Part shown: piece after piece, positions 9,618 to 48,940 of the stretch | How the letters are laid out: every line of letters begins with the position of its first letter | How positions within the stretch are numbered: position 1 is the first letter of the stretch | Origin: Candidatus Gastranaerophilales bacterium | GTDB lineage: Bacteria; Cyanobacteriota; Vampirovibrionia; Gastranaerophilales; Gastranaerophilaceae | Assembly: GCA_944326565.1 (NCBI GenBank) | Contig: CALVEL010000004.1 | Span: 1-64,000, forward strand | Reading direction: 5' to 3' | Length of the DNA stretch: 64,000 nt | Translations under genes and position numbers: made by a program | Notes under the pieces: model-generated | The model's database searches: none | What the model saw: only the letters and a program-made list of their open reading frames with translations | What the model was told of the DNA's origin: nothing

Positions 9618-10277
9618 ATGAAAAATAGTGCATTTACAATGGCAGAGGTGCTGATAACTTTAGGTATAATCGGGATAGTCGCAGCGATGACGATGCCCGG
9701 TCTAATCAAGAATCATCAGGAAAGACAATTTAAAACAGCATATAAAAAAGTGTACTCAGAAATATCCCAAGTGTTTCAAGAAGCTTTATTAAATGAAGAA
9801 TTTACCAGAACAACAAAATTTTCTGCTGAAGCTACGGCAGAGGAATTTAACATATTAAAATCTAAATTCAAAGTAATGCTAGATTGTGGCTTTCAAGATA
9901 TAGACCGTTGCTGGAAAAAAGGCGATACCTTGTGTGGAGGCTCATGTCAATCAGGCAATTCCGCTGATGGTATTGATATGGAAGATGGTGCTCCTAGAGA
10001 GGGAAGGGACTTATGTTTCATTGATGCTGGTGGGCAAAGCTGGTGTACATTTAATGATTCTGAAAACATATTTTTAGTAGATACAAACGGACGCGCAAAT
10101 CCGAACAGATTTGGTAGAGATAGGTGGATGTTTACATTTACTGATATAAATAATAATAGAGCAGATCATTTTAGTAATTATAAAAAAGTTATTCCTTATT
10201 TGAATCAAGATATATTAACACAAGATGCTTTTTGCAAACGTCCGCCTTGCTATTATCAATCCTGGCTTTTGAAATAA
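9618..10277 (+). CDS. Type IV pilin-like / pseudopilin protein
   Basis: A 219-aa protein with a short prepilin leader (M-K-N-S-A), then F-T-M-A-E-V-L-I-T-L-G and a hydrophobic helix. Position -1 is Ala rather than the usual Gly. The globular part has eight Cys and the motif V-D-T-N-G-x-x-N-P-N-x-x-G-x-D that recurs in the other pilins here. I chose ATG 9618 over ATG 9606 because GGAGG (9608-9612) sits 5 nt before it. It belongs to the type IV pilus / type II secretion pseudopilin family. No assembly ATPase, prepilin peptidase or secretin gene is in the window, so its machine must be encoded elsewhere. Confidence 0.88.
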   Translation: MKNSAFTMAEVLITLGIIGIVAAMTMPGLIKNHQERQFKTAYKKVYSEISQVFQEALLNEEFTRTTKFSAEATAEEFNILKSKFKVMLDCGFQDIDRCWKKGDTLCGGSCQSGNSADGIDMEDGAPREGRDLCFIDAGGQSWCTFNDSENIFLVDTNGRANPNRFGRDRWMFTFTDINNNRADHFSNYKKVIPYLNQDILTQDAFCKRPPCYYQSWLLK

Positions 10278-30900: not shown

Positions 30901-30979
30901 TTTGAACAATTAACAAGAATATATTATAATTAATCATGTATTAAAAATTTAAGGAAGGAGCTGGAAATGCAGACTATGC

Positions 30980-31792
30980 TTGAAATTATGGGGGGGGGGG
31001 GCACCCGAAAATAATCTCCTGGTGGGTAAAAAAATAGGATTTACATTGGCAGAGGTGCTAATAACAATTGGAATAATCGGGATAGTCGCAGCAATGACAC
31101 TGCCGACATTAATAAATGATGCTAAAAATCGGGAGTTACAGACTCAGTTGAAAAAGACATATTCTGAATTAAACCAGATGAGTCAATTGTTTTACAGTGA
31201 TTATGGTATGTCAGTGCCTGAATATTTGGCGGGTGCAAGAGCTGGGGCGACTTGGAGTAATTTTGTAAACAAAATTTTTCCTAGATATTTTAAATTGGTG
31301 AATAAAGTTGATAATTGGACTGGTGGTATGGTCGATCCTGATACAGGATCAGCTTATGATACTATGCCTTATTATCTTTATACATTAAAGGGGCATAAAC
31401 GCACCTCACCAATTTGTGATAATTCTGGATATTACTCTGATATAATAGGGCGTTATTATTTATTTAACGATTCACCTGATACTGCTGATGATAATGGCCC
31501 AATAATATGTGTTGATATAAATGGAGAAAAACAACCAAATACTTATGGAAAAGATTTCTTTTTATTTGTATTTACTGTAGATGGATATGTAATTCCAATG
31601 GGACAGCCACATGCGCATAATAAAATTATAAATGGGACTCTTGCGACCAATGGTGTAAATACCGGTAGTAATTATTGTAGTAGTACAACTTCTTCACGTG
31701 AGTCCGCTTCAGCCTGTGCTTATTATGCAATATCTGATGTAAATCCAGAGGGTAACGGGACTTACTGGAAAGATTTTTTAAGAGGTAAATAA
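30980..31792 (+). CDS. Type IV pilin-like protein behind a G12 tract (OFF in this sequence)
   Basis: The pilin frame is open from a TTG at 30980 and encodes K-K-I-G-F-T-L-A-E-V-L-I-T-I-G, then a hydrophobic helix and a globular domain with V-D-I-N-G-x-x-Q-P-N-x-x-G-x-D. The good start site is elsewhere: AAGGAAGGAG (30951-30960) lies 6 nt before ATG 30967, whose frame enters the G-tract and stops at TAA 31012 after 15 codons. Removing one G (or adding two) would fuse ATG 30967 to the pilin frame. A weak GTG at 31022 gives a normal short leader (M-G-K-K-I-G) but has no ribosome binding site. Unlike the other pilins, no regulator gene is adjacent. Confidence 0.85.
   Translation: MKLWGGGAPENNLLVGKKIGFTLAEVLITIGIIGIVAAMTLPTLINDAKNRELQTQLKKTYSELNQMSQLFYSDYGMSVPEYLAGARAGATWSNFVNKIFPRYFKLVNKVDNWTGGMVDPDTGSAYDTMPYYLYTLKGHKRTSPICDNSGYYSDIIGRYYLFNDSPDTADDNGPIICVDINGEKQPNTYGKDFFLFVFTVDGYVIPMGQPHAHNKIINGTLATNGVNTGSNYCSSTTSSRESASACAYYAISDVNPEGNGTYWKDFLRGK
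30990..31001 (+). repeat. G12 homopolymer, candidate phase-variation tract
   Basis: Twelve consecutive G residues lie 20 nt after the preferred ATG of the pilin gene, in a genome where even G6 is rare. Its length sets whether the start codon is in frame with the pilin. Confidence 0.9.
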
Positions 31793-43497: not shown

Positions 43498-44160
43498 TTA
43501 CCATGGGTAGTCTTTTTTAAATTCCCAATTATCATGCATTAAAAGCGTTGCACAATAATGCGGGGATGTTTTGCAGGATTGTAGCATATATTCTCTGCCT
43601 CTGTTAAAAAGATTTTCTTGAGTATAAGTTCCAAAATATTTATTTTTACCTATAAAATATTCATTGTATTTAGATGTGCATAATAAAAATCTAAATCGGT
43701 CTTTACCTTCCTCATTAGGATTTTTATTTCCATTCGCATCAAAGATTATGTCTAAGCAGTCACCATTAATCATATATATTGAGGATCCGTCAATGAATGC
43801 AACATATGCAGTATCTGTAGAATCAGTTTTTCTCATTTTTCTTTTTCCAATTTCAAGTGTCTTAATGAAGGGGGAAAGGTAATATTTAAAATAAGATAAA
43901 CTATTGTCTGGGGTATCTATAAGTGTGCCTTCTTCAGTTCTTTCAGCTTTAGGTTTGTCCCACTGTGCAATTGGACCATTAACATTTTCAGATAGAGTAA
44001 TAGCTTGTGTCATAAGACTATAAAATCTTTTTAGTCTTGATGAAAATTCTTTTTTCTGTGTATTAGCTATAATTGTTGACATTGTCATAGCAGCAACTAT
44101 TCCAATAATTCCGAGTGTTATCAGTACTTCTGCCATAGTAAATGATGCAATTTTATTCAT
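43498..44160 (-). CDS. Type IV pilin-like protein
   Basis: A 220-aa prepilin-like protein: leader M-N-K-I-A, then S-F-T-M-A-E-V-L-I-T-L-G and a hydrophobic helix. The -1 residue is not Gly. It has F-D-A-N-G-x-x-N-P-N-x-x-G-x-D-x-F-x-F and ends N-W-E-F-K-K-D-Y-P-W, as the pilins at 44855 and 48269 also do. AGGAG lies before the ATG. It faces the small HTH gene at 44340 across an intergenic region with a palindrome. Confidence 0.88.
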   Translation of the reverse strand: MNKIASFTMAEVLITLGIIGIVAAMTMSTIIANTQKKEFSSRLKRFYSLMTQAITLSENVNGPIAQWDKPKAERTEEGTLIDTPDNSLSYFKYYLSPFIKTLEIGKRKMRKTDSTDTAYVAFIDGSSIYMINGDCLDIIFDANGNKNPNEEGKDRFRFLLCTSKYNEYFIGKNKYFGTYTQENLFNRGREYMLQSCKTSPHYCATLLMHDNWEFKKDYPW

Positions 44161-44854: not shown

Positions 44855-45523
44855 ATGAAAGGTTTTACTTTATCTGAAACGCTTATTACATTAGGCATTT
44901 TAGGTGTAATTATAGCAATTACCTTACCATCAATTATAGAAAAGCATCAACAGAAGGTTTTTATTACTCGTATTCAAAAAACATATAGTATTGTTAACCA
45001 GGCATTGTTGCTTTCTCAGGAGGAAAATGGGTCTATCAAGTACTGGAATTTTGGAAATGATTATACAACATCTAATGTAAAAAAAGTTGTTGAATTATAT
45101 TTAAAACCTTATTTTAAAGATGTTTTTGATTTGAAGGCATCTTCGCAGTCTGGGTACTCTGGGGGGTATGGATTTATATTAAAAGACGGTACTGTTTTTA
45201 ATTTTGTTTTGGATGGCGTATCAAGTGGTACTGACATCGAAGTTCCTAGTGTACTTTGGATATATGTTAATTTTAAAAACAAATCATTGGAAAAGGATTT
45301 ATCAACTTTTGATTTTAGCAGAGATTCGTTTGTGCTTAGTCTACGTCCGACGTCTTCATCAAATTTATTGTTTTTTAATGCAACTGAGTCTACAGATCGG
45401 GAAAGTTTAATAAATCATGCTGCGTATGGGTGTAATAAAAACATAGCAAGAAACAAAAGGTGGGCCTGTGGAGCTCTAATAATGAGAGATGGATGGAAAA
45501 TCTCAAAAGATTATCCTTGGTAA
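44855..45523 (+). CDS. Type IV pilin-like protein
   Basis: A 222-aa prepilin-like protein with the shortest leader, M-K-G, then F-T-L-S-E-T-L-I-T-L-G-I-L-G. The canonical Gly(-1) and Glu(+5) are present. The central D-x-N-G motif of the other pilins is lost (F-K-N-K-S-L-E-K-D here). It ends G-W-K-I-S-K-D-Y-P-W. ATG 44855 is chosen because AAAGGAGA (44840-44847) lies before it. It is divergent from the XRE gene at 44792. Confidence 0.87.
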   Translation: MKGFTLSETLITLGILGVIIAITLPSIIEKHQQKVFITRIQKTYSIVNQALLLSQEENGSIKYWNFGNDYTTSNVKKVVELYLKPYFKDVFDLKASSQSGYSGGYGFILKDGTVFNFVLDGVSSGTDIEVPSVLWIYVNFKNKSLEKDLSTFDFSRDSFVLSLRPTSSSNLLFFNATESTDRESLINHAAYGCNKNIARNKRWACGALIMRDGWKISKDYPW

Positions 45524-48268: not shown

Positions 48269-48940
48269 TTACCATTGTGGGTAATCATTTTTAAATTCCC
48301 AATTATCAATTTGCAATAACCTTGCACAGAAATAGCCGTTCTGTTTACAGTATTCATAGGCTTGTTCTCTGGTATTAGAGTTAGGATTAGCAGATGTTGT
48401 AATTTTTTCGTTCGGATTTAGTTTACCAGATTGACCATAAGGACATATATAAAAGGCAAATTGATCTTGACCATATTTATTAGGCTTTTTGTCCCCGTTT
48501 GTGTCAAAGAGAAGGTCATAGCATGACCCAGCATTAAGATATGCAATAGTACCGTCATAAAAAATTATTCGATTTGTACGAAAAATAGTACTGCCATTTT
48601 CATCAGAAGTGTTTAGTCCTTTTTCGTAAAAATAATGTTTAAGATATTTTTTCAAATACCTGTTGAAAAATTTTTCGCATAATTCTGCAGTTTTGGCATG
48701 GTCTTTATTTCCATCTTCATTCTTGTAACCTGTTGTATCAAAATCCCAATATCTCATATCTGAATTATCAATTTCACTCATCATAATAGCCTGTTGCATG
48801 GTTGTGTAAAACTTTTTCAATTTGGCAGAAGTTTCCTGCTTTTTATGTTTCTCAATTAACATAGGCAGTGTCATAGATACAACTATTCCTATAATTCCGA
48901 GTGTAATCAATACTTCAGCAATTGTGAATCCCTTTTTCAT
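48269..48940 (-). CDS. Type IV pilin-like protein
   Basis: A 223-aa prepilin-like protein: leader M-K-K-G, then F-T-I-A-E-V-L-I-T-L-G-I-I-G. It contains F-D-T-N-G-D-K-K-P-N-x-x-G-x-D-x-F-x-F and ends N-W-E-F-K-N-D-Y-P-Q-W. AAAGGAGCAAT precedes the ATG. It shares long stretches with the 43498 pilin (C-[AT]-x-L-L-x-x-D-N-W-E-F-K). It is divergent from the XRE gene at 49029. Confidence 0.89.
   Translation of the reverse strand: MKKGFTIAEVLITLGIIGIVVSMTLPMLIEKHKKQETSAKLKKFYTTMQQAIMMSEIDNSDMRYWDFDTTGYKNEDGNKDHAKTAELCEKFFNRYLKKYLKHYFYEKGLNTSDENGSTIFRTNRIIFYDGTIAYLNAGSCYDLLFDTNGDKKPNKYGQDQFAFYICPYGQSGKLNPNEKITTSANPNSNTREQAYEYCKQNGYFCARLLQIDNWEFKNDYPQW

Follow-up and report, generated by a model that had tools for sequence, protein, structure and literature searches.

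A candidate poly-G switch in the shared leader of dispersed type IV pilin genes in Gastranaerophilales

We suggest that a tract of twelve G residues (G12) at the start of a type IV pilin-like gene turns translation of the pilin on and off as a slipped-strand contingency switch, a reading to which we give a probability of about 0.8. The gene lies in the window, the 64-kb stretch of DNA that was analysed as a whole. Judging from the sequence, this locus, the only one seen in the initial annotation, is one member of a system that extends through the genome and the family. The cell would probably shuffle which pili are made, by random slippage of DNA copying.

The window locus

The features of the locus, all on the plus strand, are as follows.

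30902..30930, +, sigma-70-like promoter candidate ahead of the leader, TTGAAC-17-TATAAT, a consensus match only (10 of 12 positions)
30951..30960, +, Shine-Dalgarno region aaggaaggag, read directly in the sequence
30967..30989, +, putative ATG start (30967) and leader codons MQTMLEI(M), read in the sequence
30990..31001, +, G12 tract, OFF by one surplus G and ON at 8, 11 or 14 Gs (sequence and frame count)
31012..31014, +, TAA closing the OFF frame after 15 codons, peptide MQTMLEIMGGGGTRK, read in the sequence
31015..31020, +, TCTCCT, an anti-Shine-Dalgarno-like arm complementary to AGGAG at 30956-30960, of hypothetical role
31022..31024, +, GTG, an alternative start proposed earlier, not conserved and without a Shine-Dalgarno site
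31037..31081, +, prepilin cleavage and methylation motif, cut between G and FTLAEVLITIGIIG (Pfam PF07963, NCBIfam TIGR02532)
31037..31792, +, type IV pilin-like gene body including the stop, intact (open frame and orthologue comparison)

Direct reading confirmed the strong ribosome binding site, the ATG at 30967, the twelve Gs and the stop after 15 codons described in the initial annotation. The proposal that 11 or 14 Gs would join the ATG to the pilin frame also held, and the frame count adds 8 Gs. The sequence thus represents the OFF state, as had been claimed, with one G too many. The leader contains two further in-frame ATGs, at 30976 and 30988, and the pilin frame is open from upstream of the tract through 31792.

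In brief, translation would begin at the ATG at 30967. With twelve Gs the ribosome would meet the TAA at 31012, and no pilin would be made. If replication removed one G or added two, the leader MQTMLEIMGGGAPENNLLVGKK would be read straight into the prepilin, and cleavage would then fall before FTLAEVLIT. One predicted junction peptide of translation through the tract is GGGAPENNLLVGK. Since similar leaders precede about 30 dispersed pilins, a given cell lineage would produce a minority of them, chosen at random.

The G12 tract is the only run of at least nine Gs in the window, where shuffled sequence gives a mean of 0.04 matches; the repeat is far above chance length and stands in a frame-shifting position. 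The pilin gene is solitary, with ybeY and dgkA before it and mazG after it on the opposite strand. Four more prepilin genes, all without a G tract, are found in the window at 9621-9779 (+), 43993-44157 (-), 44861-45037 (+) and 48782-48937 (-). Tractless pilins elsewhere in the genome carry an ordinary short leader of the MKKAFTMAE type at their start.

The gene product matches both PF07963 and TIGR02532 above cut-off and has a class III prepilin signal with Glu5 and a hydrophobic helix; past the N-terminus its similarity is weak. The genome encodes both an assembly ATPase and a prepilin peptidase, with four matches over cut-off to PilB/PilT-type ATPases (PF00437) and one to the peptidase (PF06750).

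An orthologue in the relative G001 is 76% identical in DNA and has the same leader, and it too is OFF on our reading of its frames, with a tract of G7. Between the two genes dN is approximately 0.12 and dS is above 1.2, with 35, 23 and 120 differences at the three codon positions. These values indicate that both genes, although OFF, are under strong purifying selection. An open frame of at least 150 amino acids follows the tract in 81 of the 83 OFF genes of the +1 class that had enough sequence to be checked, so that out-of-frame genes are not decayed, as a phase-variable locus would predict.

Tract pilins in the genome

The genome, 1.87 Mb and 99.9% complete, gave 81 matches to the window pilin, representing approximately 75 genes. 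It contains 33 runs of at least eight Gs and likewise 33 of at least nine, and therefore none of exactly eight. All except one of the 33 long runs lie on the coding strand within approximately 250 bp 5' of a prepilin gene, where by our own arithmetic about 0.2 would be expected by chance. This association lends support to the earlier proposal of a phase-variable locus, and it led us to reject chance or artefact as the origin of the tracts. The remaining run (L103, C9:36119 of the same genome) does not precede a pilin; we looked for a long open frame after it in both directions and found none.

The tract pilins share a leader layout, consisting of a Shine-Dalgarno site, ATG CAG ACT ATG ATT GAA ATT AT, Gn and CACCCGAAAATAAGCTCCT. 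GGAG stands 5' of the start in all 31 tract pilins, and ATG[AC]TTGAA is common to 21 of the 31. Leaders of pilins that share 29% protein identity in their bodies have a median DNA identity of approximately 73-75%. About 6 of the 31 are in frame in the assembly.

Modules of 20-100 codons recur between the leader and the pilin start in L072, L073, L077, L080, L084, L085, L095, L096 and L099-L101, and such modules are also found in relatives (L142-L175). Some of those in relatives resemble translated dispersed palindromic repeats (CHPEG..RRIS..QEILRFAQNDKK). With such inserts, the leader ahead of the cleavage site would be exceptionally long.

Tract length and reading frame

We compared 130 leaders from the window's genus and near relatives, and defined close pairs as those with at most 8 differences in 100 nt of flank. 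Tract length differs in 24 of 56 close pairs, always by exactly one G, and 22 of these 24 are ON versus OFF; the pairs are non-independent, with G001 taking part in many. For instance, L112 (G12, OFF) and L128 (G11, ON) have identical flanks, and L045 (G12, ON) differs by one G from L142 (G13, OFF) of another species. Near-identical copies can thus differ in tract length with a change of frame, as the phase-variation reading of the initial annotation implies.

The 130 leaders comprise 89 in the +1 class, 28 ON and 13 in the -1 class. The +1 class was expected to hold 57, and none of 20,000 permutations reached 89. In every spacing class the commonest tract length is the in-frame length plus one. 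Tract length thus follows the spacing class, so that what is conserved is the frame from the upstream ATG and not length itself, which supports translation from that ATG. The bias further shows that tracts do not drift freely and at random from one frame to another. The excess of OFF may reflect selection for OFF, slow slippage from an OFF ancestor, or both. The relatives G034 and G019 favour the OFF frame opposite to that of the window's genus.

It should be noted that some observations count against the switch. The excess of one OFF frame differs from what free-running random slippage alone would give. In addition, the three closest cross-species pairs examined (L098/L215, L029/L138 and L079/L170) are of equal tract length, suggesting that slippage may be slow. 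The G001 orthologue has only G7. On sequence grounds, the window gene belongs with the slipped-strand phase-variable genes.

Occurrence in relatives

The exact motif G9CACCCGNNAATAA was scanned in 84,980 species, with one genome each. It gave 37 stretches, found only in metagenome-assembled genomes (MAGs) titled Gastranaerophilales or Melainabacteria, or in the bin CASGAK (the same-genus relative G008). In 38 of 146 genomes of the family a prepilin motif lies no more than 30 nt beyond a tract. This search pattern misses longer spacings, and the reversed-pattern control gave 0 in all. Genomes of the order outside the family have 0-6 tracts each.

In other genera of the family the leaders match in layout but are unrelated in sequence, and G034, G019 and G011 use poly-C as well. 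That a matching layout is built from different sequence, and even with the opposite homopolymer, argues for selection on the frameshift property itself. One conserved mobile leader as the whole explanation was rejected on the same observations.

Some loci in relatives depart from this pattern. In G008, L179 has a G13 in a frame-shifting position before an open frame that, judged by eye, resembles a membrane acyltransferase, a classic type of phase-variable gene in other bacteria. Two loci of G022 (L257 and L260) have long G tracts before or within large open frames of approximately 500 amino acids without a prepilin motif.

In G109, at C1:50909, 199730, 238740 and 264936, the assembly has NN in or beside G tracts preceding pilins, as though reads disagreed on length; this could be length heterogeneity or scaffolding. 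Many contig ends in G001, G006 and G008 lie approximately 20-330 bp from a tract, probably because the repeated leader breaks the assembly, and tract pilins would therefore be under-counted in fragmented MAGs. A search of viral contigs for other strains of the species found none.

A possible RNA latch downstream of the tract

Of the 130 leaders, 101 have CTCCT or TTCCT after the tract, whereas shuffling gives an expectation of 1.3 for CTCCT. CTCCT is found in each of the three codon phases relative to the pilin frame and is therefore kept as nucleic acid, not protein. The duplex of a leader's own Shine-Dalgarno site with its own arm beats swapped pairs, with p 5e-5 for 121 distinct pairs and p 0.012 for the 26 pairs in which both arms are unusual, values that are inflated by relatedness of the leaders. 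In the OFF frame that the window locus uses, 124 of 130 leaders have a stop no more than 20 nt from the tract, and in the favoured OFF frame the stop stands 3-5 nt ahead of the arm in most leaders. In ensemble folding the arm pairs with the Shine-Dalgarno site in 62 of 98 leaders and with the tract in 22 of 98.

Arm conservation, duplex and stop placement suggest an RNA latch. We tentatively speculate that the leader is a two-part switch, in which the tract is joined by an anti-Shine-Dalgarno arm (GCTCCT and variants) that latches the OFF state, though we hold this to be possible rather than likely. In the common OFF frame, the ribosome would halt 3-5 nt short of the arm, which could then pair with the ribosome binding site and silence the message. 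When ON, ribosomes would pass through the arm and the binding site would stay open. RNA structure would in this way latch DNA slippage into tight ON and OFF states, and would account for the 7 to 1 preference for one OFF frame over the other in the window's genus. We offer a general hairpin of this kind as a proposal because the arm of the window locus folds onto the G tract, with a stability no better than that of shuffles (z -0.79), because the leaders are related, and because the favoured OFF frame in genus g10 (G022) often has no early stop.

Alternative explanations

Long G runs can promote transcriptional slippage. The tract might accordingly be a recoding site, at which RNA polymerase slippage or ribosomal frameshifting gives a steady in-frame minority and DNA switching matters little. 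A fixed recoding level could explain the strong preference for one OFF frame in many genomes, and equal tract lengths in the closest cross-species copies also speak for it. We nevertheless consider recoding rather improbable, since 28 of the 130 tracts are already in frame, near-identical copies are ON and OFF by one G, and the preferred OFF frame is reversed in G034 and G019. It is less probable still, and in our view quite unlikely, that the tract pilins are decaying genes, or form a mostly silent archive that, like gonococcal pilS, donates sequence to expressed pilins by recombination. The OFF majority would suit an archive, as would leaders common to unrelated pilin bodies and the recurring extension modules, which suggest recombination. 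However, every copy has its own start and Shine-Dalgarno site, the reading frames are nearly complete, the window gene is under strong purifying selection, and approximately one fifth of the tract genes are ON.

A start downstream of the ATG would make tract length irrelevant. GTG 31022 and TTG 30980, the latter 5' of the tract, are both in the pilin frame at G12, but no Shine-Dalgarno-like sequence is suitably spaced from either. The position of GTG 31022 is GTT, GCA, AGT or AAA in related leaders, and we rejected this start because it is unconserved and has no Shine-Dalgarno site. The strong dependence of tract length on the frame of the ATG would moreover be senseless if that frame were unused; a second internal ATG in some long-insert paralogues (e.g. 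L073, L100) weakens the counterargument there. Overall, we regard an alternative start as very improbable. The remaining explanation, a homopolymer-length artefact of assembly or sequencing, is scarcely credible. Homopolymers are prone to error, and in some MAGs contigs are broken inside leader copies, but the tracts stand at the same gene position in independently assembled MAGs, and errors would be blind to frame class. Slipped-strand switching therefore remains our preferred reading.

Relation to known systems and implications

As stated in the initial annotation, poly-G contingency mechanisms are known from other bacteria. Examples are Neisseria, Campylobacter and, in its pili, Bifidobacterium. 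Neisseria pilC varies in phase by a G tract in the signal-peptide coding region. As in the present genes, the tract closely follows the start codon in a gene for a type IV pilus protein and gives ON/OFF frameshifting, but the system comprises one or two adhesin genes and not a multigene pilin family. The poly-G contingency loci of Campylobacter and Helicobacter are likewise many per genome, mostly intragenic, and affect surface structures. They belong to diverse genes without a common leader, whereas here nearly all are in one gene family. Closest in logic is Neisseria Opa, with pentamer repeats in the leaders of approximately 11 dispersed genes. Both are dispersed paralogues with their own repeat in each leader-coding region; Opa differs in its pentamer in place of poly-G, in encoding outer-membrane proteins and in its smaller family.

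In Bifidobacterium breve, also a gut commensal, slippage of an intragenic G tract in sortase-dependent pilus genes joins the frames (PMC9187656). That species belongs to another phylum and has sortase pili in 1-2 clusters per genome, in contrast to approximately 30 dispersed type IV pilins with one shared leader. The earlier work found on the lineage mentions type IV pilus genes only (PMC5877343). The initial annotation knew of no description in this lineage, and our search of the open-access literature agreed, finding no report of phase variation in Gastranaerophilales. As far as that search tells, three things are new: the occurrence in this lineage, the focus of the tracts on a single family of dispersed pilins, and the leader that these genes have in common.

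If the switch operates as proposed, these non-photosynthetic gut relatives of cyanobacteria would be among the heaviest known users of phase variation, each 1.9-Mb genome holding tens of pilins that switch independently. Phase-variable pilins would predict large within-host surface diversity in an uncultured and little-studied commensal lineage.
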